A stretch of DNA of 64,000 nucleotides from a virus, in IMG/VR virus record IMGVR_UViG_3300028377_000007, positions 1 to 64,000 of that record. One strand, given 5' to 3'. Positions 2,206-14,704 of this stretch are shown here, piece after piece. Within the stretch, counting starts at the first letter, position 1; every line of letters begins with the position of its first letter. Both the position numbers and the translations under genes were made by a program. The notes under the pieces were generated by a model. That model did not search any database, was not told where the DNA came from, and saw only the letters and a list, made by a program, of their open reading frames with translations.

Positions 2206-2234
2206 TACTTTGCTGGTTTATGGTTGGTTGTCAA
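2206..2234 (-). promoter_or_regulatory. Promoter of the 2003-2200 gene
   Basis: TTGACA, 17 bp, AAAGTA, then 5 bp to the ATG. The -10 is weak. Confidence 0.4.
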
Positions 2235-2235
2235 A

Positions 2236-2517
2236 TTAAATATTATATGATTCGTCTTCAAAGTCAGAAAGTTCAATTGAACATTCTTCAAGTAATTCGT
2301 TTCTGACAAGCTCCGAGAAGTCAAGGTTTTTATTCTCAACTTCAAATTGTGAGATGTCTTTCTTGGAAGAATTTGAATCTCCCCAAACAATGGAAAAGTC
2401 ATTCAAGACAACCCCCATTTTTTGTTTGTCTTCGCCGATGTCTTCGATCCGCCACTCCGCTTCCACGGAAAGATCAAGATCGAATTTGCAAATGTAAACT
2501 GATTCTTTTGTTATCAT
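2236..2517 (-). CDS. Hypothetical protein
   Basis: A 93-residue acidic protein, likely beta-rich in its N-terminal half (VYICKFDLDLSVEAEWRI) and very acidic at the C-terminus. No domain is recognised. It has its own promoter with a leader of about two bases. Confidence 0.65.
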   Translation of the reverse strand: MITKESVYICKFDLDLSVEAEWRIEDIGEDKQKMGVVLNDFSIVWGDSNSSKKDISQFEVENKNLDFSELVRNELLEECSIELSDFEDESYNI

Positions 2518-2526
2518 GTTTTAAAG

Positions 2527-2555
2527 TAAAAGATAATTTCCTGTTGATGTCAACC
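2527..2555 (-). promoter_or_regulatory. Promoter of the 2236-2517 gene
   Basis: TTGACA, 17 bp, TTTACT, then 9 bp to the ATG. Confidence 0.7.
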
Positions 2556-2648
2556 CCTATTTTAAAAAAGTTTTTGTGGTTCTGTTTGTGCCCCTTTGTC
2601 AAACAAAAATTTGCTGGTCATGTTTGCCTTATAAGGCCAAGAAAAAAA

Positions 2649-3089
2649 TCAAATATTCTTTTTCACCTTTTGCCAATAGTTTTTTAAGTTCAATTCTTTT
2701 TGTGGATCCTTTTCGCTTTGGTCTTTCCAAGCACTTGCCCCGCCGTTCCAAATTCTTGCAAGGTCTTCAAGTGTGACATACCCCTTTGTATTTACGATTC
2801 GCTTCCCATAGAAAGAAAGTACAGTTTTGCAAACAAAAACGCTTATTTCTGGATTAAAGGCGTCGGAGTGTTTCAAGAAAAGTTTATTTCCTTTGATTTT
2901 TTGAATCCGATTGAAGTCTTGAATCATTATATCGTGAATTTGCAAGACTCCGTACGCTTTTCCGTTGTCGCCTATTGCGCTTGCATCTCCGCCACTTTCA
3001 ACTTGTATTAAAGCCTTGACAAGTGAATCAAATTCATTTGCCGCAAAACAAGTAATTGACGAAAGAATAAATAGAATAAGTTTTTTCAT
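2649..3089 (-). CDS. Secreted lytic transglycosylase-like (SLT) protein
   Basis: 146 residues: a signal peptide (about 1-17) followed by a small SLT-type lysozyme fold. IQVESGG carries the expected catalytic Glu, and AYGVLQIHD plus ARIWNGG match the family's later motifs. It would cleave peptidoglycan outside the inner membrane and could act as a phage lysin or entry/exit enzyme. The ATG follows the stop of a 16-residue membrane peptide by four bases, so translation is probably coupled to the unit starting at 3488. Confidence 0.8.
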   Translation of the reverse strand: MKKLILFILSSITCFAANEFDSLVKALIQVESGGDASAIGDNGKAYGVLQIHDIMIQDFNRIQKIKGNKLFLKHSDAFNPEISVFVCKTVLSFYGKRIVNTKGYVTLEDLARIWNGGASAWKDQSEKDPQKELNLKNYWQKVKKNI

Positions 3090-3093
3090 GTAT

Positions 3094-3144
3094 TTAAGCT
3101 AATACGAAAACGAGAACGATTGTAAGTAAAAAAAGCTCTACCAT
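3094..3144 (-). CDS. Tiny hydrophobic peptide
   Basis: Sixteen residues (MVELFLLTIVLVFVLA), almost entirely a membrane segment. AGGAG lies at Shine-Dalgarno distance and overlaps the end of the upstream gene; its stop is four bases before the SLT gene. A holin-like or lysis-helper peptide is a guess from context. It is too short for certainty. Confidence 0.45.
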   Translation of the reverse strand: MVELFLLTIVLVFVLA

Positions 3145-3147
3145 TTG

Positions 3148-3375
3148 TTATACTCCTATTTCCTTTAATGTATTTTTAAGAGTCCTTACGACTCCATATT
3201 TTAGAATTCGATCTTTACAATGAAGAGTTGTCACGGTTTCCCCAATGTAAACCTTTAAGCAAGAACCTTGCCCCTGTTTAAAATAACCGCCTAAAGATTC
3301 TACAGCCTTCAGTAGATCCCCCATTTTAATTTCTTCGACCCGCTTGATTTTTTGAATGATTTTTTCTACTTTCAT
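3148..3375 (-). CDS. HicA-like small protein
   Basis: 75 residues. The stretch from about residue 18 on, with LLKAVESLGGY, GSCLKVY and a C-terminal VRTLKNTLKEIGV helix, resembles HicA mRNA-interferase folds. The His normally found in the GSHHK-type motif is absent (GSCLK), so nuclease activity is doubtful. AAAGGAG upstream is one of the few clear Shine-Dalgarno sites here. No HicB partner is adjacent. Confidence 0.4.
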   Translation of the reverse strand: MKVEKIIQKIKRVEEIKMGDLLKAVESLGGYFKQGQGSCLKVYIGETVTTLHCKDRILKYGVVRTLKNTLKEIGV

Positions 3376-3377
3376 TT

Positions 3378-3488
3378 TTAGTACTCCTTTTTGTGCTTGG
3401 CTTTGCGCGTGTACTTCACGCGATTTTTGTGGGGCTGTGTGGCAGAACCCATGAGGCCCGTTTTGTTTTTTCTGACTTGCGGTTTCAT
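3378..3488 (-). CDS. Small basic protein
   Basis: 36 residues, rich in Lys/Arg. First gene of a four-gene unit; its last codons contain the Shine-Dalgarno of the next gene, whose ATG follows two bases after its stop. Promoter spacing indicates a leaderless start. Confidence 0.6.
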   Translation of the reverse strand: MKPQVRKNKTGLMGSATQPHKNRVKYTRKAKHKKEY

Positions 3489-3495
3489 TTTTAAG

Positions 3496-3524
3496 AGTGT
3501 TTCAGATATTCACTTTGTGGTCAA
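3496..3524 (-). promoter_or_regulatory. Promoter of the 3488 to 2649 unit
   Basis: TTGACC, 17 bp, AACACT, then 7 bp to the ATG at 3488. Confidence 0.7.
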
Positions 3525-3527
3525 CCC

Positions 3528-4025
3528 CTAAAGCAACCCAGAATCGCTAAAAGAATAATAACCTTTAAAGTTTGCAAGAGAAGATGGATCGCTTGATTGT
3601 TCTCCGCAAACAACATGATCTAAAAGTTTAACACTGAGAATATTTGCAGCTTCTCTAAGTTGTCTTGTAACTCGTATATCCGCTTCACTTGGGGTTGGAT
3701 CGCCACTTGGATGATTATGAGCGACAACAATAGTTTTTATCCCTTCCCTAACTACCGATTGAAAAACGCAAGTGGGAGAAATTAAAGTAGCGTCTTGAGT
3801 CCCCGAAGAAATTATTTCGATTCCTTTAAGCCTATTTTTGATGTTCAAGAAAAGAACCATGAAATGTTCTCTTTCTGGATTAAGTTCCCCCTTATCGGCT
3901 TTTTGTTCCATAAAAGACTTTACGGCTTTCCAAGCTTTTTCTGGGTCATCAATAATTGAATCGGAAAGATTTCCTGTCATTTCCCCGACTTTGCGGTAAG
4001 TGGTTTTTACTTCTCTTATAATCAT
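3528..4025 (-). CDS. radC: RadC-like JAB/MPN domain protein
   Basis: 165 residues forming a single JAMM domain. The metal motif is visible as HNHPSGDPTPSEAD, and MVLFLNIKNRL matches the conserved strand of RadC proteins. The N-terminal helix-hairpin-helix part of full-length RadC is missing, as is common in phage and plasmid copies. Its role is unresolved; a peptidase-like or DNA-metabolism function is suggested for the family. The promoter gives a leaderless start. Confidence 0.88.
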   Translation of the reverse strand: MIIREVKTTYRKVGEMTGNLSDSIIDDPEKAWKAVKSFMEQKADKGELNPEREHFMVLFLNIKNRLKGIEIISSGTQDATLISPTCVFQSVVREGIKTIVVAHNHPSGDPTPSEADIRVTRQLREAANILSVKLLDHVVCGEQSSDPSSLANFKGYYSFSDSGLL

Positions 4026-4032
4026 AGAAAAG

Positions 4033-4061
4033 AGACTAGAATAATATTTTTAGATTGTCAA
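4033..4061 (-). promoter_or_regulatory. Promoter of radC-like gene
   Basis: TTGACA, 17 bp, TAGTCT, then 7 bp to the ATG. Confidence 0.75.
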
Positions 4062-4157
4062 CTACTATTTTTAAAAAAATATATTTTAAATAAAGCTTGA
4101 CATATACGCACAAAAAGACATTCCAAAAAACAGATGCCTTTTTGTAGTAGCTTTTCA

Positions 4158-4196
4158 ATAAAAAAACGCGGCCATCCGAAGAAGACCGCGTTTTGT
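4158..4196 (-). terminator. Rho-independent terminator
   Basis: On the minus strand, ACGCGGTC pairs with GGCCGCGT over a ten-base loop, followed by a T run. It follows the 4208-4378 gene. Confidence 0.85.
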
Positions 4197-4207
4197 TTAT
4201 TTCTTTA

Positions 4208-4378
4208 TTAAATCAAATCGAAAAGGTAATCTGGTTCAAGCCCAAACTCTTCATGAAGAATCTCTTCAGGGTCTTCCCCATCCTCGATCCTTTCCCTTGC
4301 TTCCTCGATCATTTCTTCAGCTTCTTTTTCGCTGAGATTGTCGCGCTCCATTATGGTTTCTTTTAGTGTTTTAATCAT
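4208..4378 (-). CDS. Small acidic protein
   Basis: 56 residues, predicted helical and strongly acidic. No domain recognised. It is a single-gene unit with promoter and terminator. Confidence 0.7.
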   Translation of the reverse strand: MIKTLKETIMERDNLSEKEAEEMIEEARERIEDGEDPEEILHEEFGLEPDYLFDLI

Positions 4379-4385
4379 GGTTTAG

Positions 4386-4414
4386 AGTTAAAGATAATAT
4401 TTGTTAAGAGTCAA
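4386..4414 (-). promoter_or_regulatory. Promoter of the 4208-4378 gene
   Basis: TTGACT, 17 bp ending AAATATTATCT, TTAACT, then 7 bp to the ATG. Confidence 0.75.
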
Positions 4415-4422
4415 CCCTTATT

Positions 4423-4962
4423 TTAAAAACTTTCCCCCTCTTTTACGATGGCTAAATGTCCCATACTCGAAGGATCGCTTTTAAGAAAACGCCTATGCAA
4501 CGAGTTAAGGACTTTCCTTGATGGTGCTTTGCAGTATCTTTTAACAACTCTATTTGAGCGGGTATCAATCATAACGTACTTTATTTCTTGGCACTTCTCT
4601 CTGTTCCCCTTTGTCTTAAACTCGCCAGCGTAAAGCCTTTCTGGTTTAGCCCCAATCTCCAAACATTTAATCTTCCAAGCTATTCCATGTTTCGAACCCG
4701 GAGTCAGAGCGTGTGCTATTTCGTGGAGAATAACATCTAGAATTTCCTCATCAGAACCTATTTCCGAGAACTCTCTATTGATTGCGATTGTCTTCTTTCT
4801 GTACTCGCAAAGACCATAGCAACGATAAGTACCAGTTCGGAGAAACCTCGCATTCCAATCTGACAAACCGTACAGGTTTAGAAAAGAGCGAATAGCTCCC
4901 AGTGTATCAGTTAAAAGCTTTTCCTTTGGGAAAGGCGATTTAGATAGTTCAGTTTTAATCAT
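4423..4962 (-). CDS. SprT-like zinc metallopeptidase
   Basis: 179 residues from the ATG at 4962. HEIAHALTP supplies the HExxH zinc motif in an SprT-like context, with a downstream basic C-terminal part. SprT/SPRTN relatives act on DNA-bound or DNA-crosslinked proteins; a similar job is possible. A longer frame begins at 5001, but the promoter geometry (7 bp between -10 and the 4962 ATG) supports the shorter start. Confidence 0.8.
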   Translation of the reverse strand: MIKTELSKSPFPKEKLLTDTLGAIRSFLNLYGLSDWNARFLRTGTYRCYGLCEYRKKTIAINREFSEIGSDEEILDVILHEIAHALTPGSKHGIAWKIKCLEIGAKPERLYAGEFKTKGNREKCQEIKYVMIDTRSNRVVKRYCKAPSRKVLNSLHRRFLKSDPSSMGHLAIVKEGESF

Positions 4963-4969
4963 GGAAAAC

Positions 4970-4998
4970 AGTATCAAATAATATTTCCCCAATGTCAA
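4970..4998 (-). promoter_or_regulatory. Promoter of SprT-like gene
   Basis: TTGACA, 17 bp with AAATATTATT, GATACT, then 7 bp to the ATG. Confidence 0.78.
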
Positions 4999-5012
4999 CA
5001 CCGAAATTGTAC

Positions 5013-5046
5013 AAAAAAACTCCCAACGCTTGCTAACGCTGGGAGC
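5013..5046 (-). terminator. Rho-independent terminator
   Basis: CTCCCA pairs with TGGGAG and the stem extends through GCGT/GCGT wobble pairs; seven T follow on the minus strand. Confidence 0.85.
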
Positions 5047-5310
5047 TAAAAACTAATTAAATACTTATTTCTAGATTTTAAGTCGAGAGCTTAGTTTTTT
5101 GTTTTGTTTGCCCTATTATTTATTTTCCCTGCTGTTACAAGACCTCTCTAATAAATTGCCGCATATTTAACAGAATATTTGGCGCGAGCTTCTATTATTT
5201 TTTTAGTTACTTTATGCTTACTTCATTGCTTTTTTCTCCTATTTTTTCATCTATTTTTTAGGTTTAGTTTGTTCTAGTTTTCTCTGACTGTCGAGAGAAA
5301 TCCTTATTAT
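5013..5310 (-). ncRNA. Candidate untranslated transcript of about 0.3 kb
   Basis: A promoter identical in class to the gene promoters fires at about 5310, but no ATG lies at the start and no open frame longer than nine codons follows before a strong terminator at 5013. Near its 5' end TTTCTCT pairs with AGAGAAA; further on CTGTTA can pair with TAACAG. It does not match an RNA family I recognise. Confidence 0.5.
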
Positions 5311-5316
5311 TTACGA

Positions 5317-5345
5317 AGACTAGCGTGTTTTTTGGCGTTTGTCAA
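5317..5345 (-). promoter_or_regulatory. Promoter of the candidate ncRNA
   Basis: TTGACA, 17 bp, TAGTCT; no start codon within 30 bp downstream, unlike its neighbours. Confidence 0.65.
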
Positions 5346-5353
5346 GAGTTTTT

Positions 5354-5509
5354 TTAATATCCCGCCCAAGTTTTTAGCTTAGAGAAAGAAGAAAAAACAA
5401 TTCTTTTATCGTTATCTCTCCAGTCTATGATAATGATCTTACCGTTTTCAAGAGAAGAGTTCTCCCCCCAATCGTGTAACTTGCCCCAATTCAAATGTTT
5501 CTCGTTCAT
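5354..5509 (-). CDS. Small hypothetical protein
   Basis: 51 residues with several Trp and a IIIIDWRDNDKRIVF strand pair. No family recognised. Leaderless start from a private promoter. Confidence 0.65.
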   Translation of the reverse strand: MNEKHLNWGKLHDWGENSSLENGKIIIIDWRDNDKRIVFSSFSKLKTWAGY

Positions 5510-5515
5510 GGTTGT

Positions 5516-5544
5516 ATAAAAAGATAATTTTGCGGCAAAGTCAA
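5516..5544 (-). promoter_or_regulatory. Promoter of the 5354-5509 gene
   Basis: TTGACT, 17 bp, TTTTAT, then 6 bp to the ATG. Confidence 0.72.
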
Positions 5545-5567
5545 CCCCTAATTAAAGAATCTGCGAT

Positions 5568-5909
5568 TTAGTTAAGAACATAATCGGATTCCTGACAAAA
5601 AGAATTTAATTGAGATTTGAATAGAAGTTCAAGCTCTACTAAATATTCATCAATTCGGCTGTGTAGATTATATGCCACAAGATCGCCGAATTCCTCTGAC
5701 GAATCGCCAATAAAAACTAGAGAATTTTCTTTAATTTTAACAAATTCATTTTTATTTTTTGGAATTACGATCATAGAACTACCCAAGTCTAAAATAATGT
5801 CTTTATCTATATGGGCATACAAAACAGGAGAGTTTTTTTCTGAAGTTACAATAACAGCGGCACTCCCTTGGATTAGATCGATGGCTTTTTGTAATTTGAT
5901 TAGTTTCAT
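5568..5909 (-). CDS. Hypothetical protein
   Basis: 113 residues, mixed alpha/beta in appearance (AAVIVTSEKN, SSMIVIPKN). No domain recognised. Upstream TTGAAT, 17 bp, ATTATC, 6 bp to ATG follows the local promoter layout. Confidence 0.65.
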   Translation of the reverse strand: MKLIKLQKAIDLIQGSAAVIVTSEKNSPVLYAHIDKDIILDLGSSMIVIPKNKNEFVKIKENSLVFIGDSSEEFGDLVAYNLHSRIDEYLVELELLFKSQLNSFCQESDYVLN

Positions 5910-5952
5910 GGTTTTGATAATGATGATAGAACTTATAAATTCAACTCTTTTT

Positions 5953-6153
5953 TTAAAAAAGTTTCATTTGTTCAAGTTTAATTAAATGATTTTTGGCGTC
6001 GGTTTTTTGTTGGTCGATTCGCGCTTTCTTTCTTTTTCGCGCTTCGACGCTTCTTCTGCTAGCAATCTTGCAAGCTTCAGAGTAAGAGGGCCGGGGACTA
6101 GTTTCATTTTGGATCCTTAGTGTTAATGAGTGGAATGATTCTTTTCTCTTCAT
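5953..6153 (-). CDS. Small basic protein
   Basis: 66 residues with a strongly basic middle (RRSVEARKRKKARID), possibly nucleic-acid binding. No family recognised. Its promoter lies inside the last codons of the upstream gene. Confidence 0.65.
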   Translation of the reverse strand: MKRKESFHSLTLRIQNETSPRPSYSEACKIASRRSVEARKRKKARIDQQKTDAKNHLIKLEQMKLF

Positions 6154-6159
6154 AACGTT

Positions 6160-6188
6160 ATTTAGAATAATATATTACGAAAAGTCAA
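6160..6188 (-). promoter_or_regulatory. Promoter of the 5953-6153 gene
   Basis: TTGACT, 17 bp, CTAAAT, then 6 bp to the ATG. The -35 is embedded in the final codons (Leu-Asp-Phe) of the 6175-6396 gene. Confidence 0.7.
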
Positions 6189-6396
6189 GCATTCTTTTTT
6201 CAAAATCTAAAATTTCTTCTAAGTTAATCCATTCTATTTCTCCCAGTGGAATCAATAAATTATATAGTTCTTTCATCTTAGCAATTTGGTCCACAACGCT
6301 CAAGGCCCAAAGATGCTTTTCTTTTCTATCTCCAAAGCCTAAAAAATATTCGCAATCTTGTTGTAGTCTAGCTAGCAATTGGTATTCAAAGTTCAT
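6175..6396 (-). CDS. Hypothetical protein
   Basis: 73 residues, predicted all-helical, no recognised domain. Leaderless start. Confidence 0.65.
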   Translation of the reverse strand: MNFEYQLLARLQQDCEYFLGFGDRKEKHLWALSVVDQIAKMKELYNLLIPLGEIEWINLEEILDFEKRMLDFS

Positions 6397-6402
6397 GATT
6401 AA

Positions 6403-6431
6403 GATACTGATTATTATTTCGCGAAAGTCAA
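6403..6431 (-). promoter_or_regulatory. Promoter of the 6175-6396 gene
   Basis: TTGACT, 17 bp, AGTATC, then 6 bp to the ATG; overlaps the region just after the 6435-6563 stop. Confidence 0.7.
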
Positions 6432-6434
6432 TGA

Positions 6435-6563
6435 TTAAAATTCTTTTTCTGCCTCTTTTTTTGCCGCCAAGTATCCACCCTTATAAGGATTTGAACTAGT
6501 TTTTTTGTTGAGCTTAAAAGAAACTCGATTGTCGTGAATATAAATGAATAAGTGATTTTTCAT
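6435..6563 (-). CDS. Small hypothetical protein
   Basis: 42 residues, starting MKNHLFIYIHDNRVSF and ending in a Lys/Glu-rich helix. No family recognised. Promoter spacing supports the start. Confidence 0.6.
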   Translation of the reverse strand: MKNHLFIYIHDNRVSFKLNKKTSSNPYKGGYLAAKKEAEKEF

Positions 6564-6569
6564 TCTTAT

Positions 6570-6598
6570 ATACAAACAAAGGTTTCTGATAAAGTCAA
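6570..6598 (-). promoter_or_regulatory. Promoter of the 6435-6563 gene
   Basis: TTGACT, 17 bp, TTGTAT, then 6 bp to the ATG. Confidence 0.72.
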
Positions 6599-6855
6599 GA
6601 ATTATTTTCAGCTAATGGTAAATAGTTTTTATCCCCCTCATATCCTTTGTATGATACTCTAAAATCATTAAAGTCTTTTATGGTTGCGGATCGAAGAACC
6701 GGTTTCTCTGGGACATAAATCCAACCTTGTTCCGTGGGTATTGTTGCCCCGCGCAAAACAGAAGAATGCAAAATCCCAAAAAACCTTTTATTATCTTGGC
6801 GCATATACCCAAGAATATTATTATTTAAAACAAAAAACCGTATTTTCTTATTCAT
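6595..6855 (-). CDS. Hypothetical protein
   Basis: 86 residues, beta-strand rich, no recognised domain. Leaderless start. Confidence 0.65.
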   Translation of the reverse strand: MNKKIRFFVLNNNILGYMRQDNKRFFGILHSSVLRGATIPTEQGWIYVPEKPVLRSATIKDFNDFRVSYKGYEGDKNYLPLAENNS

Positions 6856-6861
6856 GCCCTT

Positions 6862-6889
6862 AGTATTACAAAGAAAGCGGCGAAGTCAA
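6862..6889 (-). promoter_or_regulatory. Promoter of the 6595-6855 gene
   Basis: TTGACT, 16 bp, AATACT, then 6 bp to the ATG. Confidence 0.68.
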
Positions 6890-6931
6890 GTCTTTTTTGG
6901 AACGATTTTGGAACGATTTCATTATTTAAAA

Positions 6932-7005
6932 TGGTGCGCCCACTGAGATTCGAACTCAGATTGATTGGTTAAAAGCCAAATGTTCTACCATTGAACTATA
7001 GGCGC
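6932..7005 (-). tRNA. tRNA-Lys (UUU) with encoded CCA
   Basis: Acceptor GCGCCTA pairs with TGGGCGC (one G-U), D stem GTTC/GAAC, anticodon loop CTTTTAA giving anticodon UUU, T arm CTGAG-TTCGAAT-CTCAG, discriminator A and genomic CCA. The variable loop is four bases and the outer anticodon-stem pair is a mismatch. It would read AAA/AAG, which are very common in this AT-rich genome. Confidence 0.92.
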
Positions 7006-7039
7006 ATTTTAGATTTTTAGTACCCTCTCTATTTGTAGG

Positions 7040-7218
7040 TTAAATGTCAACAACAAATTTATCAATATTCAAAATAATAATTTGCTTTCCAGTTGGCAAG
7101 CTCTCATGTTTATGTTGAATGATATATGCATCACAATTAAATCCTTGAATAAATTTTTGTATTGAGTGTGAAAACCTATGATAATTTGAATAATTTACTC
7201 TACTCTATAGAATTTCAT
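7040..7218 (-). pseudogene. Small gene with an apparent frameshift
   Basis: A perfect promoter leads to an ATG at 7218, but the frame stops after seven codons. One frame over, an open frame continues to 7040 with a sensible sequence (FSHSIQKFIQGFNCDAY, then GKQIIILNIDKF). Total length is two bases short of a codon multiple, consistent with one lost base. About 59 residues if repaired; no family recognised. Sequencing error, decay or programmed frameshifting are all possible. Confidence 0.5.
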
Positions 7219-7224
7219 GGTGGT

Positions 7225-7253
7225 TATAATGTATATTTAACTTTAAATGTCAA
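7225..7253 (-). promoter_or_regulatory. Promoter of the 7040-7218 gene
   Basis: TTGACA, 17 bp, ATTATA, then 6 bp to the ATG; among the best promoters in the window. Confidence 0.75.
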
Positions 7254-7272
7254 GGTTTATCTCGCAATCAAA

Positions 7273-7310
7273 CAAAAAAGGGGAATAGCCCCACCACAAA
7301 ACTACTCCCC
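7273..7310 (-). terminator. Rho-independent terminator
   Basis: On the minus strand GGGGAGTAG pairs with CTATTCCCC (one G-U) over a 13-base loop, then six T. It follows the 7319-7525 gene. Confidence 0.75.
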
Positions 7311-7318
7311 AACCATGT

Positions 7319-7525: not shown

Positions 7526-7567
7526 ACTTACAACGAAATTTAAATCTTTATAGTGTTTTCCATAACT

Positions 7568-7816: not shown

Positions 7817-7822
7817 GGTTGT

Positions 7823-7851: not shown

Positions 7852-8238
7852 GCTATATTCGCAAAATCATCAATATAATATTGGGGAAATTTTTTGATTG
7901 TTTTTATTCTATCGTTCATTTCTTGTTTTGCTTTCTCCATGCTTCGGTGTTTAGTAGAAGACTGACCCCCTCCATAAACAGTATAAACAGGCTTGCTATT
8001 TGGCTTTATTTCAGTCCATGAGTGGCCAGAGTCAAATCCAAACTATTTGCCAATTATAACAATTCAAAGTAACCCTTTTTCTGGAAACAGGTCTATTGGA
8101 ATAATGCCAAGGCCAGCGGCAATAAAATTTAGTTGCTTTTTTATCCTTATAAAAAACTGTATCAAACCTCTTAGCTTTTGGCGAGTATTCTTTTAATACC
8201 TCATCTGTTGTCGGCTCTTGTCTGGCGTATATTTTCAT
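7848..8238 (-). pseudogene. Hypothetical gene split by an apparent +1 frameshift
   Basis: The first part (8032-8238) encodes 68 residues; the second (7848 to about 8028) continues one frame over with FGFDSGHSWTEIKPNSKP and a helical tail. Removing one base near 8030 joins them into a protein of about 129 residues. No family is recognised. Promoter: TTGACT, 17 bp, AATACT, 9 bp to the ATG. Confidence 0.5.
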
Positions 8239-8247
8239 TATTTTCAG

Positions 8248-8276
8248 AGTATTAAACGTTATTTGCTATAAGTCAA
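8248..8276 (-). promoter_or_regulatory. Promoter of the 7848-8238 gene
   Basis: TTGACT, 17 bp, AATACT, then 9 bp to the ATG, so the leader is about two bases. Confidence 0.68.
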
Positions 8277-8296
8277 TAAAATAATTCCCTATTTAA

Positions 8297-8327: not shown

Positions 8328-8372
8328 CCCCGATCATTCTTTTTGGATCCGCCCCGATCATTCTTTTTGGAT
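8328..8372. repeat. 21-bp direct repeat, two copies, 24-bp period
   Basis: CCCCGATCATTCTTTTTGGAT occurs at 8328 and 8352, between the stop of the 8372 gene and its terminator. Confidence 0.85.
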
Positions 8373-8737
8373 TAAGCTTTTACCTTGACTTTTTCAGCCT
8401 TGGTTTGTTCCTTGGCTTGTTCCTTTTCCAACTTGGCTTTTTCCTTGGCAGCGACCTCTTCCGCTTCTGGCAACCAAGCGGTTGTCTTTTGAACCGTAGT
8501 GTCCTTGACTTCCGCCGTTTCTTCGTCTCCAAACTGGTAGGTCTTTAGTCCCTTCATGCCTTGAGCGATAGCGTACTTGCGAGCCGTCTGAACCTCAGTT
8601 GGCTTGAGCTGAACGGAAGGAGTGTTTTCTTCAGTAAAGCCCCCCTTCTTAGTTGCGGCGATCATTTCGTCAAGCTCATTATGGTATGGCTTGCGGATTT
8701 CACGGTTATGGCGAACGGTGATGTTTCTGGTATTCAT
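8372..8737 (-). CDS. Hypothetical protein with Lys/Glu-rich tail, probably highly expressed
   Basis: 121 residues. The first 85 look folded; the last 35 are a low-complexity Lys/Glu/Ala tail (AKEKAKLEKEQAKEQTKAEK). GC content is higher than that of neighbours. Unlike them it has a 48-base leader that opens with a stable hairpin, a Shine-Dalgarno (AAGGA, 8 bp upstream) and a strong promoter, all signs of high expression. No family recognised. Confidence 0.75.
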   Translation of the reverse strand: MNTRNITVRHNREIRKPYHNELDEMIAATKKGGFTEENTPSVQLKPTEVQTARKYAIAQGMKGLKTYQFGDEETAEVKDTTVQKTTAWLPEAEEVAAKEKAKLEKEQAKEQTKAEKVKVKA

Positions 8738-8767
8738 TATATTGTCCTTAGTTTTTGTTGTTAGTAA

Positions 8768-8785
8768 ATAGTCATCCTTGACTAT
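8768..8785 (-). promoter_or_regulatory. 5'-terminal mRNA hairpin
   Basis: ATAGTCA and TGACTAT form a perfect 7-bp stem with loop AGGA exactly at the predicted transcript start of the 8372-8737 gene. Such 5' hairpins stabilise mRNAs; that role is inferred. Confidence 0.6.
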
Positions 8786-8792
8786 GAAAAAG

Positions 8793-8821
8793 AGTATTTC
8801 AGAAGTTATCTATAATGTCAA
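8793..8821 (-). promoter_or_regulatory. Promoter of the 8372-8737 gene
   Basis: TTGACA, 17 bp, AATACT; start predicted near 8786, leaving a true 5' leader. Confidence 0.75.
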
Positions 8822-8829
8822 TAGTTTTT

Positions 8830-9057
8830 TCAAGAAATCGAAACTTTTCTGCGATTCTCGATCATTTCGCTGATATCGACAGAAGTTGCTTTTTGAGTCA
8901 ATGCCCCCAAGCGGAAATTCAAAACGTTTTTAGCTTTGCCTTTTCCCGCTTCCAAAAAAGAAATAACGCGAATCTTGCCGCCATTCTCGTATTTAAGATT
9001 AGTGCGATAAAGATCGCTGTTGCGTTGCTTGCGAATGGTTTTCTGTATTACTTTCAT
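8830..9057 (-). CDS. Small basic protein
   Basis: 75 residues, Lys/Arg-rich N-terminus and a beta-like middle (KIRVISFLEAGKGKAK). No domain recognised. Leaderless start. Confidence 0.65.
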   Translation of the reverse strand: MKVIQKTIRKQRNSDLYRTNLKYENGGKIRVISFLEAGKGKAKNVLNFRLGALTQKATSVDISEMIENRRKVSIS

Positions 9058-9064
9058 GATTAAG

Positions 9065-9093
9065 AGACAATAGTGTTATTGTTGTGAAGTCAA
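9065..9093 (-). promoter_or_regulatory. Promoter of the 8830-9057 gene
   Basis: TTGACT, 17 bp, TTGTCT, then 7 bp to the ATG. Confidence 0.72.
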
Positions 9094-9468
9094 GAGTTTT
9101 TTTAAATCTTTGTTGAAGTAATTGCAGTAATCAAACAAAGTATCTGTTTGTTTTTGGGAAAGCTCTTTTTTTGTGAAAAAAAGTTCTAGGTTGTCATCAT
9201 AACCGATCCACGAACCATCTTTTATTCTAGCCCAACCCACCTTGAAAAGATAGTCGTCAAACAATTCTTTAAAAAATCTTCCACTCTTTAAAACAGATTG
9301 ATCTTTATTTAAAATAAAAACCCCTATATATTTAGCAACCCTATTATGCTCTGCCCCGCCGCAACAATAGAAATCCCCTTTCGGCGAAATCCAACCATTC
9401 CTAGTAAAAGAATCAGTTTCCTCGTGCTTCAGGTTTTCGAGGTTAGAAGAGTGAACTAAGTATTTCAT
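9076..9468 (-). CDS. Hypothetical protein
   Basis: 130 residues; GWISPKGDFYCCGGAEHNRVA in the first third, then alternating strands and helices. No domain recognised. Leaderless start. Confidence 0.7.
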   Translation of the reverse strand: MKYLVHSSNLENLKHEETDSFTRNGWISPKGDFYCCGGAEHNRVAKYIGVFILNKDQSVLKSGRFFKELFDDYLFKVGWARIKDGSWIGYDDNLELFFTKKELSQKQTDTLFDYCNYFNKDLKKLLTSQQ

Positions 9469-9474
9469 TATTAC

Positions 9475-9503
9475 AATAAATACTATTTATAGATCCTAGT
9501 CAA
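9475..9503 (-). promoter_or_regulatory. Promoter of the 9076-9468 gene
   Basis: TTGACT, 17 bp, TTTATT, then 6 bp to the ATG. Confidence 0.7.
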
Positions 9504-9721
9504 GGATTATTTGAGAAATTTCTAGAAATAATTTCTGCGATGGCTTTTTGGCCCTCTTTTGTTCCTATTCTCGATCCAGTAATAGAATACTCGTATATTT
9601 CTTTTGCTGATACAATCGCTCTGGTATCTTCCCCACAAGAAAAACAAATTCTGTTTCTGGTAAGTACTGTTCTTTCGCTCGAAGACCGGTTATTTAAGCA
9701 CTTTGGGCAAGTGGTTCTCAT
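9500..9721 (-). CDS. Zinc-ribbon protein
   Basis: 73 residues. Two CxxC knuckles (CPKC at 5-8 and CFSC at 27-30) make a zinc ribbon similar in layout to NrdR and Ogr/Delta proteins, followed by a helical tail. A small transcriptional regulator is plausible but unproven. Confidence 0.65.
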   Translation of the reverse strand: MRTTCPKCLNNRSSSERTVLTRNRICFSCGEDTRAIVSAKEIYEYSITGSRIGTKEGQKAIAEIISRNFSNNP

Positions 9722-9728
9722 ATTACTT

Positions 9729-9757
9729 TATTTAATTTAAAGTGCCGCGAAAATCAA
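9729..9757 (-). promoter_or_regulatory. Promoter of the zinc-ribbon gene
   Basis: TTGATT, 17 bp, TAAATA, then 7 bp to the ATG. Confidence 0.65.
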
Positions 9758-9993
9758 TATACATAAAATGCTATTCCTTCGTCGATGTTTTTTTCTTCAA
9801 CGTTGGCGCTTATGTTATTTGCATAAGGGTACTGGCCCCACTCCACGCCTTCAGATACAATATCCCTTTCTAACATGTCGTCATCGAAAGGATAGGTCTT
9901 GGTATTAACTAATACCCCAAACTTAAACTGTTTGTTATTTTCTCGGTCTAATCCCGAAACTACAAATGAGCGGATTCTATTTTCGTTTTCCAT
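9754..9993 (-). CDS. Hypothetical protein
   Basis: 79 residues from the ATG at 9993 (MENENRIRSF). An upstream ATG at 10029 would lie inside the promoter, so the shorter form is chosen. Beta-rich (FVVSGLDREN, KFGVLVNTKT). No domain recognised. Confidence 0.65.
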   Translation of the reverse strand: MENENRIRSFVVSGLDRENNKQFKFGVLVNTKTYPFDDDMLERDIVSEGVEWGQYPYANNISANVEEKNIDEGIAFYVY

Positions 9994-10000
9994 GCTTATC

Positions 10001-10029
10001 ATACAATAGAAAACTATAAGCTTTGTCAA
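10001..10029 (-). promoter_or_regulatory. Promoter of the 9754-9993 gene
   Basis: TTGACA, 17 bp, TTGTAT, then 7 bp to the ATG. Confidence 0.75.
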
Positions 10030-10046
10030 ACAAAAAGTTAAAATAC

Positions 10047-10193
10047 TTATTTATCTTTATAATCCTCGTGCCACCCCATTTCCTTGCTAAAAAAACTATA
10101 TAGTTTATAGCAACAACAAACCACGAACCCAAACGTTATTCCTATCGTAGCGAATAAGAGGTCTACAATCTTATTTAATGTTTTATTTGGCAC
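10047..10193 (-). CDS. Small membrane protein (GTG start)
   Basis: 48 residues with one membrane helix (LLFATIGITFGFVVCCCY) and a charged cytoplasmic tail. The only start in frame is GTG at 10193, which overlaps the previous small gene. Function unknown. Confidence 0.5.
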   Translation of the reverse strand: MPNKTLNKIVDLLFATIGITFGFVVCCCYKLYSFFSKEMGWHEDYKDK

Positions 10194-10242
10194 AAACAAA
10201 TATTAGGATTAACACAATAATAAAGACTTCGCCGCCGCCCAT
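10183..10242 (-). CDS. Tiny membrane peptide
   Basis: 19 residues, MGGGEVFIIVLILIFVCAK. Its ATG overlaps the upstream stop as TAATG, a typical coupling signal. Compare the 16-residue peptide at 3094-3144. Confidence 0.45.
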   Translation of the reverse strand: MGGGEVFIIVLILIFVCAK

Positions 10243-10415
10243 TATTTATCCCCCTCTTTGGATTTTTGAAACACTTCTGGACCACCATCGCTTGATAGTA
10301 GATTTCCCACTGGAATATCTGTTGAGGTTAAAAGTTTTTCAACTCTTTCCCTAAATTCAATCCACTCTTCGTCTGTGAATGCTCGTTTGTTATCATAGTA
10401 GTGTGAATATCCCAT
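10242..10415 (-). CDS. MGYSHYY-type small phage protein
   Basis: 57 residues opening MGYSHYYDNKRAFTDEEW. Many phage and plasmid proteins begin with a similar MGYxHYW motif followed by a helix; the usual longer C-terminal part is missing here. Function unknown. It sits four bases after the upstream stop. Confidence 0.6.
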   Translation of the reverse strand: MGYSHYYDNKRAFTDEEWIEFRERVEKLLTSTDIPVGNLLSSDGGPEVFQKSKEGDK

Positions 10416-10419
10416 AGTT

Positions 10420-10646
10420 TTATTTGTTTAGTTCAAACAGTCCAGTCGCTAAAATGATCTCTTCGACCTTCCAATAGTCTTCTAGTTCTTTCCGTAATTC
10501 GATTTTCCGTAAAGGTCTTCGTCTTCTTGAATCCAAGTGCCCTCGAAGTTCTCAGAGAAAGAGAAGATCATTTCTCCGTTTTCGCCTTCTTTTGAGAAGT
10601 AAGTTTCACCATTTGCATTTGTAAGAGTGTTGATTTTGTTTTTCAT
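10420..10646 (-). pseudogene. Small gene with an apparent homopolymer frameshift
   Basis: From the ATG at 10646 the frame runs to a stop near 10484. Adding one A to the run GGAAAATCG continues the protein naturally as IELRKELEDYWKVEEIIL and ends at 10420, four bases before the next ATG. About 75 residues, acidic, no family recognised. Confidence 0.55.
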
Positions 10647-10651
10647 ATTTT

Positions 10652-10702
10652 TCAGTTATTTATTTGGTTATCGGTGTGAAAACAGTGTCTTTTGGATTTC
10701 AT
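10652..10702 (-). CDS. Very short open frame
   Basis: 16 codons (MKSKRHCFHTDNQINN). The ATG overlaps the stop of the 10699-11400 gene (ATGA), and TTGACA, 17 bp, CACTCT at 10711-10739 points at it with 8 bp spacing. It may be a leader peptide for the following unit. Confidence 0.3.
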   Translation of the reverse strand: MKSKRHCFHTDNQINN

Positions 10703-11400
10703 TGTTTTTGAGAGTGAACTATTTTTGAGGTTTTGTCAATATTTATTTGAGTTGCCGCAGCCGCCTTTTTCTTGTTACTCCCATGAACAGGAAAAGCAAT
10801 AATTGTTTTGCGCTTTGCACGTTGGCACAATCCACAAGACATACAATTTACATATTCACTTTTAGTTGCGGGACAAATCGTTACTCGATTGCCTTGTTTC
10901 GTGTACTTTTCATCAAAATCTTCGGGCGCCACCGATACAACTGGACCGATACCAAGCTTTTTGTATTCATCCGCTTGGTCAAGATTGTTGGCGCTAAGAT
11001 TTACAGTCAAACCGTTTTCGTTGGCCATTTTAATGGCATCTCGATTTTTTTTCTTGCTTACGTCATGATGGGTATAAGTAAACATCCTTTTGTCCTTTGC
11101 CGCTTTAACAAGACCTTTTAAAAAAGAAAGATTAATTGTTTCATCTTTATTCTTGAGTAAATCCCCCGCTTGATTGTGTCTCATCAAAATTCCATCTGGC
11201 AAAGCCTTAATTGCTTTGAAGAATTCGCTTTGGGATAATGCGTTGCGCGAACGTTCCCATACTATTCTCAAAGGTCCACTGTTGGCATAACAACCGTTTG
11301 CTTTTAATGGACAAGAGTTTGGGCAACTATCGGGAGTTGTAGTAGTTACAGGGATCGGACCCGTCTTACGGTTGGAAGATTTCGCTGTTAAAATAAACAT
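10699..11400 (-). CDS. Conserved Cys-rich phage/plasmid protein
   Basis: 233 residues. It starts MFILTAKSSNRKTGPIPVT, with CPNSCPLKANGCYA at about 26-39 and a second cluster CMSCGLC at about 187-193. Several phages carry relatives, but I know no established function. The Cys pattern suggests a bound iron-sulfur cluster or zinc, and a remote link to Gp37/Gp68-type proteins is possible. Leaderless start. Confidence 0.7.
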   Translation of the reverse strand: MFILTAKSSNRKTGPIPVTTTTPDSCPNSCPLKANGCYANSGPLRIVWERSRNALSQSEFFKAIKALPDGILMRHNQAGDLLKNKDETINLSFLKGLVKAAKDKRMFTYTHHDVSKKKNRDAIKMANENGLTVNLSANNLDQADEYKKLGIGPVVSVAPEDFDEKYTKQGNRVTICPATKSEYVNCMSCGLCQRAKRKTIIAFPVHGSNKKKAAAATQINIDKTSKIVHSQKQ

Positions 11401-11406
11401 GATCGC

Positions 11407-11435
11407 TACAATGACGGCTCATCTTAAAATGTCAA
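11407..11435 (-). promoter_or_regulatory. Promoter of the 10699-11400 gene
   Basis: TTGACA, 17 bp, ATTGTA, then 6 bp to the ATG. Confidence 0.72.
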
Positions 11436-11457
11436 CCCCTTTTTTAAAAATATTTTT

Positions 11458-11838
11458 CTAAGACTTATATTTTTTAAATGCTGACTCTGGATACTTCATA
11501 ACCCTATTACCTTCATCAACAAGAAAGGGAAATTTTGTTGATCTAGGTTTGTAGCCTATAATCTTAACTGTTTTTCCGCAAACATTGATCTCTTTATTTA
11601 ATAGGTCTTCTGGAAGTCCATGAGAAAAAGAATAAGCTTTAAAATCCTGAGCTTCTTTTGTTTCTACTATTCCGTCTTCGTTTATTAGCGCGACTTGCAA
11701 TTTAAAACTCGCATTTTTATCGGTAAAACTCACATTCCCTGCGTTAATTTCTACGTTATATTTATCGCCCACGCTCTTCAAGGCTCTATTTATTTCGCTT
11801 CGCAATACTCTAAGGTTATCTCTTGTTATTTGGTTCAT
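11458..11838 (-). CDS. Conserved phage protein of unknown function
   Basis: 126 residues with a pattern I recognise from many phages: an N-terminal helix (ITRDNLRVLRSEINRAL), AGNVSFTDKNASFKL, and a C-terminal barrel-like part with IIGYKPRSTKFPFLV. Function unknown. Preceded by an A-rich leader without Shine-Dalgarno; probably co-transcribed with the 36-residue gene upstream. Confidence 0.7.
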   Translation of the reverse strand: MNQITRDNLRVLRSEINRALKSVGDKYNVEINAGNVSFTDKNASFKLQVALINEDGIVETKEAQDFKAYSFSHGLPEDLLNKEINVCGKTVKIIGYKPRSTKFPFLVDEGNRVMKYPESAFKKYKS

Positions 11839-11871
11839 GATTGTTTATTTAGTTTTTATTGTGGAATAAGG

Positions 11872-11982
11872 TTAGAATTTCGGCTCTTCATCATGAAGTT
11901 TGTTGATATCAGAAATAAAATCCCCTTTTTCGGCGCATATTGATTCCAAGAATCGAACTAGACTGATTAGTAGTTTTTTCAT
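11872..11982 (-). CDS. Small hypothetical protein
   Basis: 36 residues, an amphipathic N-terminal helix (KKLLISLVRFLESI) then a charged tail. Leaderless start. Confidence 0.55.
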   Translation of the reverse strand: MKKLLISLVRFLESICAEKGDFISDINKLHDEEPKF

Positions 11983-11989
11983 AGCCTAA

Positions 11990-12018
11990 AGTTAAAAAGA
12001 ATATTTGAAAAAAGTCAA
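11990..12018 (-). promoter_or_regulatory. Promoter of the 11982 unit
   Basis: TTGACT, 17 bp, TTAACT, then 7 bp to the ATG. The -35 includes the TGA stop of the upstream gene (GCT TGA CTT). Confidence 0.74.
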
Positions 12019-12179
12019 GCCTCTTTTTTGTACTTGCTTGGATTGTTCTTTTGTCTGGCCTTTAACTTCTTATTTGAAATAACTTCTCCAGTTACTGAAT
12101 CAACAGTTGTACCGCTTGCGCGACCAGCTTGTTTGAATTTTGGATTCTTAGGCTTTGGGCTCTTTGCTTTTTTTGACAT
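12015..12179 (-). CDS. Small basic protein
   Basis: 54 residues, Lys/Pro/Ser-rich, likely disordered and nucleic-acid binding. A-rich leader (AACTAAATAAACATC) before the ATG, no Shine-Dalgarno. Confidence 0.55.
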   Translation of the reverse strand: MSKKAKSPKPKNPKFKQAGRASGTTVDSVTGEVISNKKLKARQKNNPSKYKKEA

Positions 12180-12268
12180 GATGTTTATTTAGTTGTTTAT
12201 TTGGCGAAATTAATATTTAAAATATATGCAAAATCGTTAATATTTAAGAATATATGGTAAACTGGGCA

Positions 12269-12931
12269 TCACAAATCAGTAGTCACATCTAAGATTTTTT
12301 TAGAATTTTTCTGCCAGAATCCTTTTATTTTAATTTGGTTTCGGCGATTCCCACCGATGTACTCAATGATTTTACCCTTATGGTCATGAAGAGTAACAAC
12401 CCACTTAGATAAACTACTATGTCGATCAAAGTTTTGTAACTTGACGGTGTTTCCCCCTCCATCTAGATTACCAATATTAAAATTAATTGTTTTTTCTTGC
12501 TGGATTGCTATATTCCCAGAAAACAATTCTTTATAAGAATATATTTCTTCATTATTGGTTGTAAATTTCCAGCCGTATACTTTATAAGAATAATCCCTAT
12601 TGCCGCGATTTTCTAGTCTAATTTTTAATTCGTCATACCTTGCATTAGGAACAGCCTCGAAAATAGTAAAGGGGGCAGGAAGAATTTTTTTTAAATAAAG
12701 TATATCTTCGTCGCTCAAATCTTTAAAATCAACCCAAAAGAATCTCCCATCAGATCGGAGTATTTGAATCGATTTCCCCTCTAGCGTTTTTGCTTCTGCC
12801 TTAATGGTTTGTCCGCTTTTTGAGGTCCAAACCCTTGTTTCGCCCTCAACTTTTGTATGAGGAAATGAACCAAGACCTAAAGTAGAACAAAAAGCCCAAG
12901 TAGCAGATAAAAAGAATAGTATTGTTTTCAT
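12269..12931 (-). CDS. Secreted protein with SHD1-like N-terminal repeat
   Basis: 220 residues from the ATG at 12931. A signal peptide (about 1-20) precedes RVWTSKSGQTIKAEAK, an aspartate-glycine turn (RSDGRFFWVDF) and LSDEDILYLKK: the pattern of SHD1-like repeats I associate with Verrucomicrobia and Planctomycetes secreted proteins. The rest is beta-rich and unassigned. It is the main clue to a PVC host. The start follows the promoter geometry; ATG at 12940 would lie in the spacer. Confidence 0.65.
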   Translation of the reverse strand: MKTILFFLSATWAFCSTLGLGSFPHTKVEGETRVWTSKSGQTIKAEAKTLEGKSIQILRSDGRFFWVDFKDLSDEDILYLKKILPAPFTIFEAVPNARYDELKIRLENRGNRDYSYKVYGWKFTTNNEEIYSYKELFSGNIAIQQEKTINFNIGNLDGGGNTVKLQNFDRHSSLSKWVVTLHDHKGKIIEYIGGNRRNQIKIKGFWQKNSKKILDVTTDL

Positions 12932-12938
12932 TGTTAAC

Positions 12939-12967
12939 AATTAATAGTGTTTTTTTGTTTTTGTCAA
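12939..12967 (-). promoter_or_regulatory. Promoter of the SHD1-like gene
   Basis: TTGACA, 17 bp, TTAATT, then 7 bp to the ATG. Confidence 0.72.
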
Positions 12968-13731
12968 GGGTTATTTGCGAATTCGTTGATTTGTTTCCAA
13001 TGTTTGCGGGTAATTTCTACTCCAGAATCAAGTTTTACAGCTTCGATGTTACTGTTTCCAAAAGTACTAGAGACATTAAAGGCGTCTTCTAGCATTTTGA
13101 AACTAATTTCGGCGCAGCCATATTTAACTAAATGATCTTTAATTTTTCCCTCATAACCATTAATTTTCGGCATAGAAACATCAGGCTTATTAAATAGGGT
13201 TAAAAATTCATCAGAGCTAATTATTTTGCGCGAGCTGTATGGATATTGCCTTTCTATATAATCAATATAATTAGTTGTTATTTGCTCATTCTGCAATATA
13301 ATATGATCTAGCCTAATATTTTCGTAAAAAAGAATTAAAGTATTTACATTACCATTTCTACACTTTTCATTTTCAATACCATTTTCGATTAAAAAAGCTT
13401 GAAAAGCTTTTTGTTCAAACTCAGTGGAGAACTTAACAATATGGTTTTCAAAAATATTAAAGATTTTTTGTTTCATGTTTTTGTTTCTTTTGCTGTTTGG
13501 TAGATATTTTTCCTCAAATTTTTTGTAGGATAATACCGGAAATAGCTTTTTGTGATTGTTGCGGATATAATCCCAGCTACAATAATTATAATCCATATAA
13601 ACCCTAACAGGGTAATTGCTGCAATCTTTAGGAAAAGACACATAATTATATATTTTTATTGCAAAATCATAAATAGCTTTTTGCTGGATCTCGTTGTGAA
13701 TGATTACTTGAAATGCTTCTTGTATTTTCAT
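12964..13731 (-). CDS. Hypothetical protein, paralogue of 16528-17355
   Basis: 255 residues from the ATG at 13731. It shares with the 16.5-kb gene an N-terminal FQVIIHNE/FQVIIENE region, KFSTEFEQKAF/KFSSEFEQKQF, and a C-terminal block with PKINGYEGKI and KYGCAEI. No known domain. The promoter fixes the start and is nearly identical to the one at 14676. Confidence 0.7.
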   Translation of the reverse strand: MKIQEAFQVIIHNEIQQKAIYDFAIKIYNYVSFPKDCSNYPVRVYMDYNYCSWDYIRNNHKKLFPVLSYKKFEEKYLPNSKRNKNMKQKIFNIFENHIVKFSTEFEQKAFQAFLIENGIENEKCRNGNVNTLILFYENIRLDHIILQNEQITTNYIDYIERQYPYSSRKIISSDEFLTLFNKPDVSMPKINGYEGKIKDHLVKYGCAEISFKMLEDAFNVSSTFGNSNIEAVKLDSGVEITRKHWKQINEFANNP

Positions 13732-13738
13732 GGTTCGT

Positions 13739-13767
13739 ATATTTAAGAAAAAGTTCGCACAAGTCAA
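13739..13767 (-). promoter_or_regulatory. Promoter of the 12964-13731 gene
   Basis: TTGACT, 17 bp, AAATAT, then 7 bp to the ATG. Nearly the same sequence recurs at 14676-14704. Confidence 0.74.
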
Positions 13768-13778
13768 GCTTTATTTTA

Positions 13779-14246
13779 TCAAATACTAGAATAGTCTTCC
13801 TCAATTTTAAGAAGATCCATAATTGCGTCCACAATGCGCCTCAATGACCTCTCTAGTTTTATATTTCGTTCTTCTAGTTTTCGAGCAAAAATCGCTTCTA
13901 CAACTTTATCAGTGTAAGAATCAATAATAACTTCAATAATATCTTCTCGGCAAAGTTCTCCAGAATAATTTATTAGTAGTTTCTTTGTTTCTTTGCTTTT
14001 TTCTTCTGCGATTCTATACGCTTTAATCTTGCTTCTAAATTGCGATGGGGCGGCGCAAACAGCCTTCGCGATGGGAATGCCATCTTTTTTTCTATTGCAA
14101 ATTTCGTATTCTGCAATCCCCCAATAAGAATATTGTTTAGCTTTTCCTTTCGCCTTTGCGGAAGAAACTTTAATAACTGGAATGGGTCCAGAGATTTTCA
14201 ATAAATCAGATAGTATTTTTTGCGGATTTGTAAGCTCTTTTTTCAT
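13779..14246 (-). CDS. Hypothetical protein
   Basis: 155 residues from the ATG at 14246 (MKKELTNPQK). Basic N-terminal half with KVSSAKAKGKAKQYSYWG, then a long helical C-terminus. No domain recognised. An upstream ATG at 14321 is rejected because it would cross the promoter. Confidence 0.65.
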   Translation of the reverse strand: MKKELTNPQKILSDLLKISGPIPVIKVSSAKAKGKAKQYSYWGIAEYEICNRKKDGIPIAKAVCAAPSQFRSKIKAYRIAEEKSKETKKLLINYSGELCREDIIEVIIDSYTDKVVEAIFARKLEERNIKLERSLRRIVDAIMDLLKIEEDYSSI

Positions 14247-14255
14247 GATTGTTGC

Positions 14256-14284
14256 ATATTTAAGTAAAAAGTGGCGAAAGTCAA
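14256..14284 (-). promoter_or_regulatory. Promoter of the 13779-14246 gene
   Basis: TTGACT, 17 bp, AAATAT, then 9 bp to the ATG. Confidence 0.68.
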
Positions 14285-14287
14285 GCT

Positions 14288-14472
14288 TTATTCTTGTCCT
14301 TCCAAAAAAATTATAACACAAAAGTAAAATAAAATAGCAAAAGGAATTCCTAGAATTATATAAAATAAAACAAATGGCGTCCTGAGTATATTATGATAAA
14401 CAGAAGTTTTTTTGGAAATATGTTTTGAATTACTCTGTTCAAAAGAGTTTCCCGATATTTATATTTTCTCAT
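14288..14472 (-). pseudogene. Small membrane protein gene with an apparent frameshift
   Basis: The promoter (TTGACT, 17 bp, AAAATA at 14482-14510) points at the ATG 14472. Shifting frame after about six codons gives a Ser/Lys-rich stretch followed by a long membrane helix (LFYIILGIPFAILFYF) and a stop at 14288. Length is one base short of a codon multiple. The unshifted frame is also open for 38 codons, so this call is tentative. Confidence 0.4.
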
Positions 14473-14517
14473 TTGTATGTATATTTTGCGCGAAAGGTTA
14501 CTAAAGTCAAGTTTTAT

Positions 14518-14668
14518 TTAAGAAAAATAATTTTCTAATTCTCTATCAGACAAAAGAACCGCTTTACTTTTTAACCCCAACCAGTTAAGATTGCAAGGAA
14601 TTTAATCCCTTCGCGATAATGATTCTAAAATCTTTAAATGTTTTTTCTGGTATTGTTATTTTTTTCAT
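14518..14668 (-). pseudogene. Small gene with an apparent frameshift
   Basis: Starting at the ATG 14668, 27 codons run to a stop; one frame over, LNWLGLKSKAVLLSDREL continues to 14518. One surplus base near 14590 would explain it. No family recognised. Confidence 0.45.
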
Positions 14669-14675
14669 GATTCGT

Positions 14676-14704
14676 ATATTTAAGGAAAAGTTCGCACAAG
14701 TCAA
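14676..14704 (-). promoter_or_regulatory. Promoter of the 14518-14668 gene
   Basis: TTGACT, 17 bp, AAATAT, then 7 bp to the ATG; near-copy of the 13739-13767 promoter. Confidence 0.72.

Follow-up and report, generated by a model that had tools for sequence, protein, structure and literature searches.

The 64,000-nucleotide (nt) window analysed here comprises bases 1-64000 of the 87,040-base linear viral fragment IMGVR_UViG_3300028377_000007 (G000), which carries nearly all of its genes on the minus strand. About 30 minus-strand open reading frames (ORFs) of G000 are preceded by a TTGAC element that begins 34-38 nt (mode 35/36) upstream of the ATG, and these modules are very probably sigma70-type promoters with the transcription start (+1) at or near the A of the ATG, yielding leaderless mRNAs, with a spacing conserved across a phage lineage. 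In the proposed mechanism a strong TTGAC -35 element, a spacer of ~17 bp and a short -10 element would be followed by 6-7 bp, placing +1 on the A of the ATG or at most ~6 nt before it. The main sigma factor of the host would recognise the modules and start RNA at this A, and the ribosome would then start at the 5'-terminal AUG without Shine-Dalgarno (SD) contact; operon-internal genes would lean more often on SD sites or coupling. The early timing given in the initial annotation is likewise putative.

Spacing of TTGAC and ATG

The recurrence of the TTGAC-to-ATG spacing is confirmed and lies far above chance. Across the whole record, 26 ORFs of the automatic set have TTGAC at 34-38 nt as against 0.69 expected from TTGAC counts at other distances (Poisson p ~1e-31), while a search of all 87 kb for TTGAC-N30/31-ATG gives 32 matches, compared with 5 for the reversed pattern used as a control. 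At all 23 starts for which the initial annotation had proposed such promoters the hexamer indeed begins 35 or 36 nt before the ATG; the sequence TTGACW, claimed for every one of them, holds at 21, with TTGACC found at 3488 and TTGATT at 9721. At least ten sites of the same class were absent from that list (ATGs 2200, 2517, 6855, 8238, 14246, 14472, 20173, 27487 and 61019, with 64318 and 79183 beyond the window). As the first T of TTGACA lies near -35/-36, a distance of 35/36 nt to the ATG would put +1 on its A.

Among the codons found 35/36 nt after TTGAC in G000 ATG alone is enriched (32 vs 5.1 expected), whereas GTG (2 vs 2.2), TTG (6 vs 8.7), CTG and ATT are not. This restriction fits leaderless initiation, which in E. 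coli is strongly AUG-dependent and in some other bacteria less so (PMC9031893). Two contrasting sites with a more distant TTGACA, at the tRNA-Lys gene and at gene 8372-8737 (Table 1), also fit the leaderless reading of the modules.

The promoters had been described as serving single genes, which is doubtful: from 1.8 to 20.5 kb the minus strand offers only ~4 good terminator hairpins, so that nested read-through transcription across this cluster is likely, judging from terminator content.

Promoter anatomy and translation features

The -35 element of G000 is a strong TTGAC, and a TTGACA-like hexamer with a 16-18 bp spacer corresponds to canonical sigma70 promoters. In the alignment on TTGAC the informative columns are an A-rich block at 12-17, T18 and T28, the latter being the last base of the -10 element if the spacer is 17 bp. 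T is conserved at the final -10 position in 18/25 modules and at spacer position T18 in 19/25, whereas A at -11 is not conserved. The strongest additional motif, recovered by an expectation-maximisation (EM) search, lies in the spacer and is A-rich (TATTAT / AAATATTATC), with a log-likelihood of 72.8 vs 47.8 +/- 3.6 for shuffles. A spacer sequence common to several modules, as noted earlier, is therefore real as a motif, but an exact AAATATTATCT is confined to 4378, the other modules carrying variants of it. The base before the ATG is C in 17 of 34 cases and G in none, with C common at -2/-1, which fits a pyrimidine at -1 preceding an A start.

The earlier statement that SD sites are mostly absent stands for the motif genes themselves, 2 of 33 of which have an SD site at <= -4 kcal/mol compared with 31/99 other genes in the curated gene list (p = 6e-6 on energies), but the contrast with other genes is lost in a coarser test (see below). 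Structure at the 5' coding end showed no difference in G000 or G001, a relative introduced below, and a weak one in G022, a second relative; a phage bS21 ribosomal protein that might act as a helper was absent.

Conservation in related phages

Two larger relatives show the same TTGAC peak: G001 (L014; a 193,745-bp record), reached via RadC, and G022 (L088; a 211,117-bp record), reached by a scan with the spacer motif on DNA only. They have 17 and 15 proteins in common with G000, and their DNA polymerases are 40% and 48% identical to that of G000, respectively. In G022 the promoter is of textbook form (TTGACA, 17 bp, YANTAT, 6-7 nt, ATG) with a G at the extended -10 position; 24/25 modules have A at -11 and 23/25 have T at -7. 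The RadC, DUF7227, RIIB and 64318-gene orthologs of G000 and G001 have kept TTGAC at 35-38 nt with differing intervening sequence.

Beyond these genomes, 80 viral loci were gathered from an alignment of UvsX-like recombinases without use of the motif. In 79 of them (the G022 locus excluded, redundant records retained) intergenic TTGAC is found 0 times at 24-33 nt before ATG, then 3, 13, 10, 7, 8, 5, 9 and 4 times at 34 to 41 nt, and is nearly gone beyond 41 nt. SD sites precede 1/45 genes of the lineage loci with TTGAC at 34-39 nt vs 6/23 with a more distant TTGAC (p = 0.005). Summed over 31 UvsX-picked records, TTGAC-N30/31-ATG occurs 567 times vs 181 for the reversed pattern. Since the recombinase and the helicase match isolates at less than ~30% identity at best, the lineage is regarded as uncultivated on present sequence comparisons. 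Peptide searches of viral contigs with NAPRTase and DNA polymerase returned no direct relatives, and the specific pattern TTGACTT..ATACAAACCATGAA had no match.

As a separate observation, G001 genes lacking a TTGAC module have T directly before the ATG in 171/255 cases, and many have TANNNT immediately before it, which may represent a second start-site signal.

Alternative explanations

Several observations weigh against the leaderless promoter model. The -10 hexamer described in the initial annotation holds in position but is degenerate in sequence, TANNNT showing no enrichment at -12/-13 in G000; with so poor a -10 and the strongest spacer signal being A-rich/TATTAT, recognition may differ from that by a plain sigma70 factor. 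When genes are called automatically and SD sites by a simple pattern, the SD contrast in G000 is not significant (2/26 vs 26/121, p = 0.17) because SD sites are uncommon there anyway, and an SD difference between genes with near and distant TTGAC was not seen in G001 and G022; SD sites being rare in these phages overall, their absence is evidence of limited weight. In addition, several other G000/G001 ortholog pairs have the motif in one member only, TTG at 35/36 nt is slightly over-represented in G001 (17 vs 9.6), and the ATG excess in G022 is smaller (40 vs 15.4).

The poor -10 element also speaks for a rival view of how the modules are recognised, one to be taken seriously, in which a phage-encoded sigma factor or activator reads the G000 promoters, with the AAATATTATC spacer tract as its recognition site or operator and TTGAC only part of what is read. 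Along with the strong spacer motif, this idea draws on sigma70 region-4-like domains that score above cut-off in 3/16 relatives including G001 (protein at 64275-64421). However, the 87-kb G000 fragment, itself incomplete, contains no sigma-like gene, and in G022, which gave no region-4-like match, the identically spaced elements are those of a textbook sigma70 promoter, so that we judge a dedicated phage factor improbable though worth serious consideration; the leaderless geometry would be unaffected, as it would still imply a start at the ATG. Terminase matches did not settle the host, being limited to metagenome bins from three unrelated groups (Flavobacteriales or Flavobacteriaceae, Halobacteriovorax, Verrucomicrobiales) and one further bacterium, and a TnpB search of genome contigs for the host gave no match. 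WhiB, taken as a marker for an actinobacterial host, is absent in 16 records.

Two further alternatives were weighed. If genome compaction had squeezed ordinary leadered promoters against the ATG, leaving a short 5' untranslated region and a spacing that is a by-product of packing, one would expect the crowding that G000 in fact displays, with many upstream gaps of just 18-47 nt and some -35 elements within the preceding gene. Yet the spacing is unchanged where 100-390 nt upstream are free, and compaction alone is insufficient, given that TTGAC stands at 34, 36, 36, 36, 38 and 38 nt in genes with 100 nt or more of unoccupied upstream sequence; the sharp 34-nt edge common to the lineage and the enrichment of ATG alone in G000 also make this explanation unlikely. 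It is less probable still, indeed very unlikely, that the element before the ATG is a translation signal, such as pyrimidines or an AT-rich context, and that TTGAC is no promoter. A dipyrimidine is reported directly before start codons in cyanobacteria and other groups (PMC3160421), and C is enriched at -1/-2 in G000, but TTGAC has both the sequence and the distance of a canonical -35 hexamer, -10 elements are conserved in G022, the tRNA-Lys gene, which has no start codon, also has a TTGACA upstream, and the same layout occurs in Thermus phage phiYS40, for which leaderless transcripts are reported (see below). The leaderless positioning advanced in the initial annotation is thus supported by the sharp spacing edge in relatives, the enrichment of ATG alone, the lack of the pattern in unrelated phages and the geometry of phiYS40.

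Module inventory and gene content

The modules of the window are collected in Table 1. Those at 13731 and 14668 are identical at 34/36 positions from TTGAC to ATG and have unrelated flanks, and this one pair suggests that promoter plus start codon is a movable unit. The ATG at 7218 opens only 7 codons, apparently owing to a frameshift: gene 7020-7218 (-) is frameshifted early beside a 5-bp AGAGT tandem duplication, and an open frame of ~50 codons continues in another frame.

Table 1. TTGAC modules and contrasting TTGACA sites in the window (distance, nt from TTGAC to ATG unless stated)
Position (strand)	Type	Distance	Gene or remark
2198..2234 (-)	module	34	ORF 2003-2200
2515..2553 (-)	module	36	ORF 2236-2517
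3486..3524 (-)	module	36	36-amino-acid (aa) ORF; hexamer TTGACC
4023..4061 (-)	module	36	RadC-like gene 3528-4025; G001 ortholog TTGAC at 35
4376..4414 (-)	module	36	AAATATTATCT in spacer
4960..4998 (-)	module	36	-10 GATACT; 391 nt free upstream
5507..5544 (-)	module	35	
6151..6188 (-)	module	35	
6394..6431 (-)	module	35	
6561..6598 (-)	module	35	
6853..6889 (-)	module	34	ORF 6595-6855
7216..7253 (-)	module	35	reading frame breaks after 7 codons
7814..7851 (-)	module	35	
8236..8276 (-)	module	38	
9055..9093 (-)	module	36	-35 within 3' end of upstream ORF
9466..9503 (-)	module	35	
9719..9757 (-)	variant module	36	TTGATT..ATG
9991..10029 (-)	module	36	
11398..11435 (-)	module	35	DUF7227 gene; G001 ortholog TTGAC at 38
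11980..12018 (-)	module	36	
12929..12967 (-)	module	36	
13729..13767 (-)	module	36	near-identical to module 14666-14704
14244..14284 (-)	module	38	
14470..14510 (-)	module	38	38-aa ORF
14666..14704 (-)	module	36	second copy of 13729 module; 27-aa ORF
17353..17391 (-)	module	36	gene is a 41% paralog of 13731 gene
20171..20209 (-)	module	36	among few also with SD-like AAGGA
27485..27525 (-)	module	38	RIIB gene; G001 ortholog TTGAC at 37
56847..56884 (-)	module	35	
58369..58407 (-)	module	36	polynucleotide kinase/phosphatase gene; start 58371 rather than 58422
61017..61054 (-)	module	35	
63156..63193 (-)	module	35	
7006..7050 (-)	contrast	45 to tRNA-Lys 5' end	TTGACA; no start codon constraint
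8738..8821 (-)	contrast	84	promoter-like TTGACA-17-AATACT before gene 8372-8737; leader has SD-like AAGGA

The window further contains genes for RIIB, RadC, RNA ligases, polynucleotide kinase/phosphatase and NAD synthesis, and DNA polymerase III alpha, a DnaB-like helicase and the UvsX-like recombinase are encoded beyond its end. Because no terminase or capsid gene was recognised among the G000 proteins scanned, the genome is probably incomplete. The NAD genes (41815-46424 and 55593-56384, both minus strand) comprise NadE, NAPRTase and a weak isochorismatase/nicotinamidase-like match and form a synthesis or salvage set. NAD-capped leaderless RNA was considered, as the phage carries NadE and NAPRTase, and dropped: the modules have C/A at -1, a position at which NAD capping favours a purine. 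Other features include a row of protein kinase, VWA/metallopeptidase (DUF2201), MoxR-like AAA ATPase and PP2C phosphatase genes (48261-53511, minus strand) resembling phosphorylation-triad conflict systems; a stand-alone reverse transcriptase gene (RVT_1; 61406-62776, minus strand) with the palindromic TATTCGCGAATA upstream; and, at window positions 1-173, a perfect 46-bp tandem repeat of 3.8 copies built of TTTACAA / TTTTTGACAA elements, which may represent either origin-like iterons or a repeat of the contig end.

Implications

If the starts are confirmed, leaderless expression promoter by promoter would be a trait of this whole lineage of large phages, at a density well beyond that of the phage cases documented so far, and hundreds of natural leaderless promoters would become available for studying what the ribosome needs at a 5'-terminal AUG. 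Gene finders that rely on SD sites would then place starts wrongly in such genomes or overlook them; a TTGAC can be used there to mark a start 35 nt downstream of it. A broader proposal, which we offer tentatively and hold to be rather less probable than not, is that a whole lineage of uncultivated large double-stranded DNA phages expresses small accessory genes via leaderless mRNAs from interchangeable 36-bp promoter-plus-ATG modules, which would move between genes and follow the sigma preference of the host; the genes would thereby avoid SD-dependent translation and could gain an advantage whenever the phage shifts the initiation-factor balance of the host.

Comparison with known systems

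The TTGAC-ATG pattern shows little or no enrichment in T4, phiKZ, PAK_P1 and a Bacillus jumbo phage. The middle and late mRNAs of phiYS40 are reported to be leaderless (Sevostyanova et al., 2007, cited from the review PMC3594737), and in this phage we find TTGAC 35 nt and TANNNT 12 nt before ATG, so that it serves as a positive control. It resembles G000 in the position of TTGAC at 35 nt, a C-rich -1 position, a low-GC genome and the large absence of SD sites at these genes. Its layout is TTGAC-17-TANNNT-6-ATG, from which G000 differs by the degenerate -10 and the spacer motif, and the same count yields ~10-12 such genes, of middle and late classes, whereas the G000 modules are densely set before small genes within a 13-kb cluster. 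The two phages are linked by no more than 3 weak protein matches, and G000 is not a phiYS40-like genome.

Among bacteria, leaderless genes with a '-10 motif' are known in Deinococcus-Thermus and Actinobacteria (PMC12340547, PMC3160421), where the -10 element sits at a distance that lets the RNA start on the start codon, as is predicted for G000. Most such genes in Deinococcus carry TANNNT and lack a classical -35 (PMC12340547), whereas the -35 is the strong part in G000. The lambda cI transcript from PRM is a phage mRNA that begins at the AUG. It serves as a model in PMC11514452 and has the 5' AUG in common with the transcripts predicted for the modules, but is a single gene compared with dozens per genome in the G000 lineage. 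Making much of a protein set from leaderless mRNAs is firmly documented for few phages. The description of the modules as unusual is apt among phages at large and less so in that they are common to a whole lineage and have a documented precedent: the kind is known from phiYS40, and G000 is a denser, lineage-wide variant of it.

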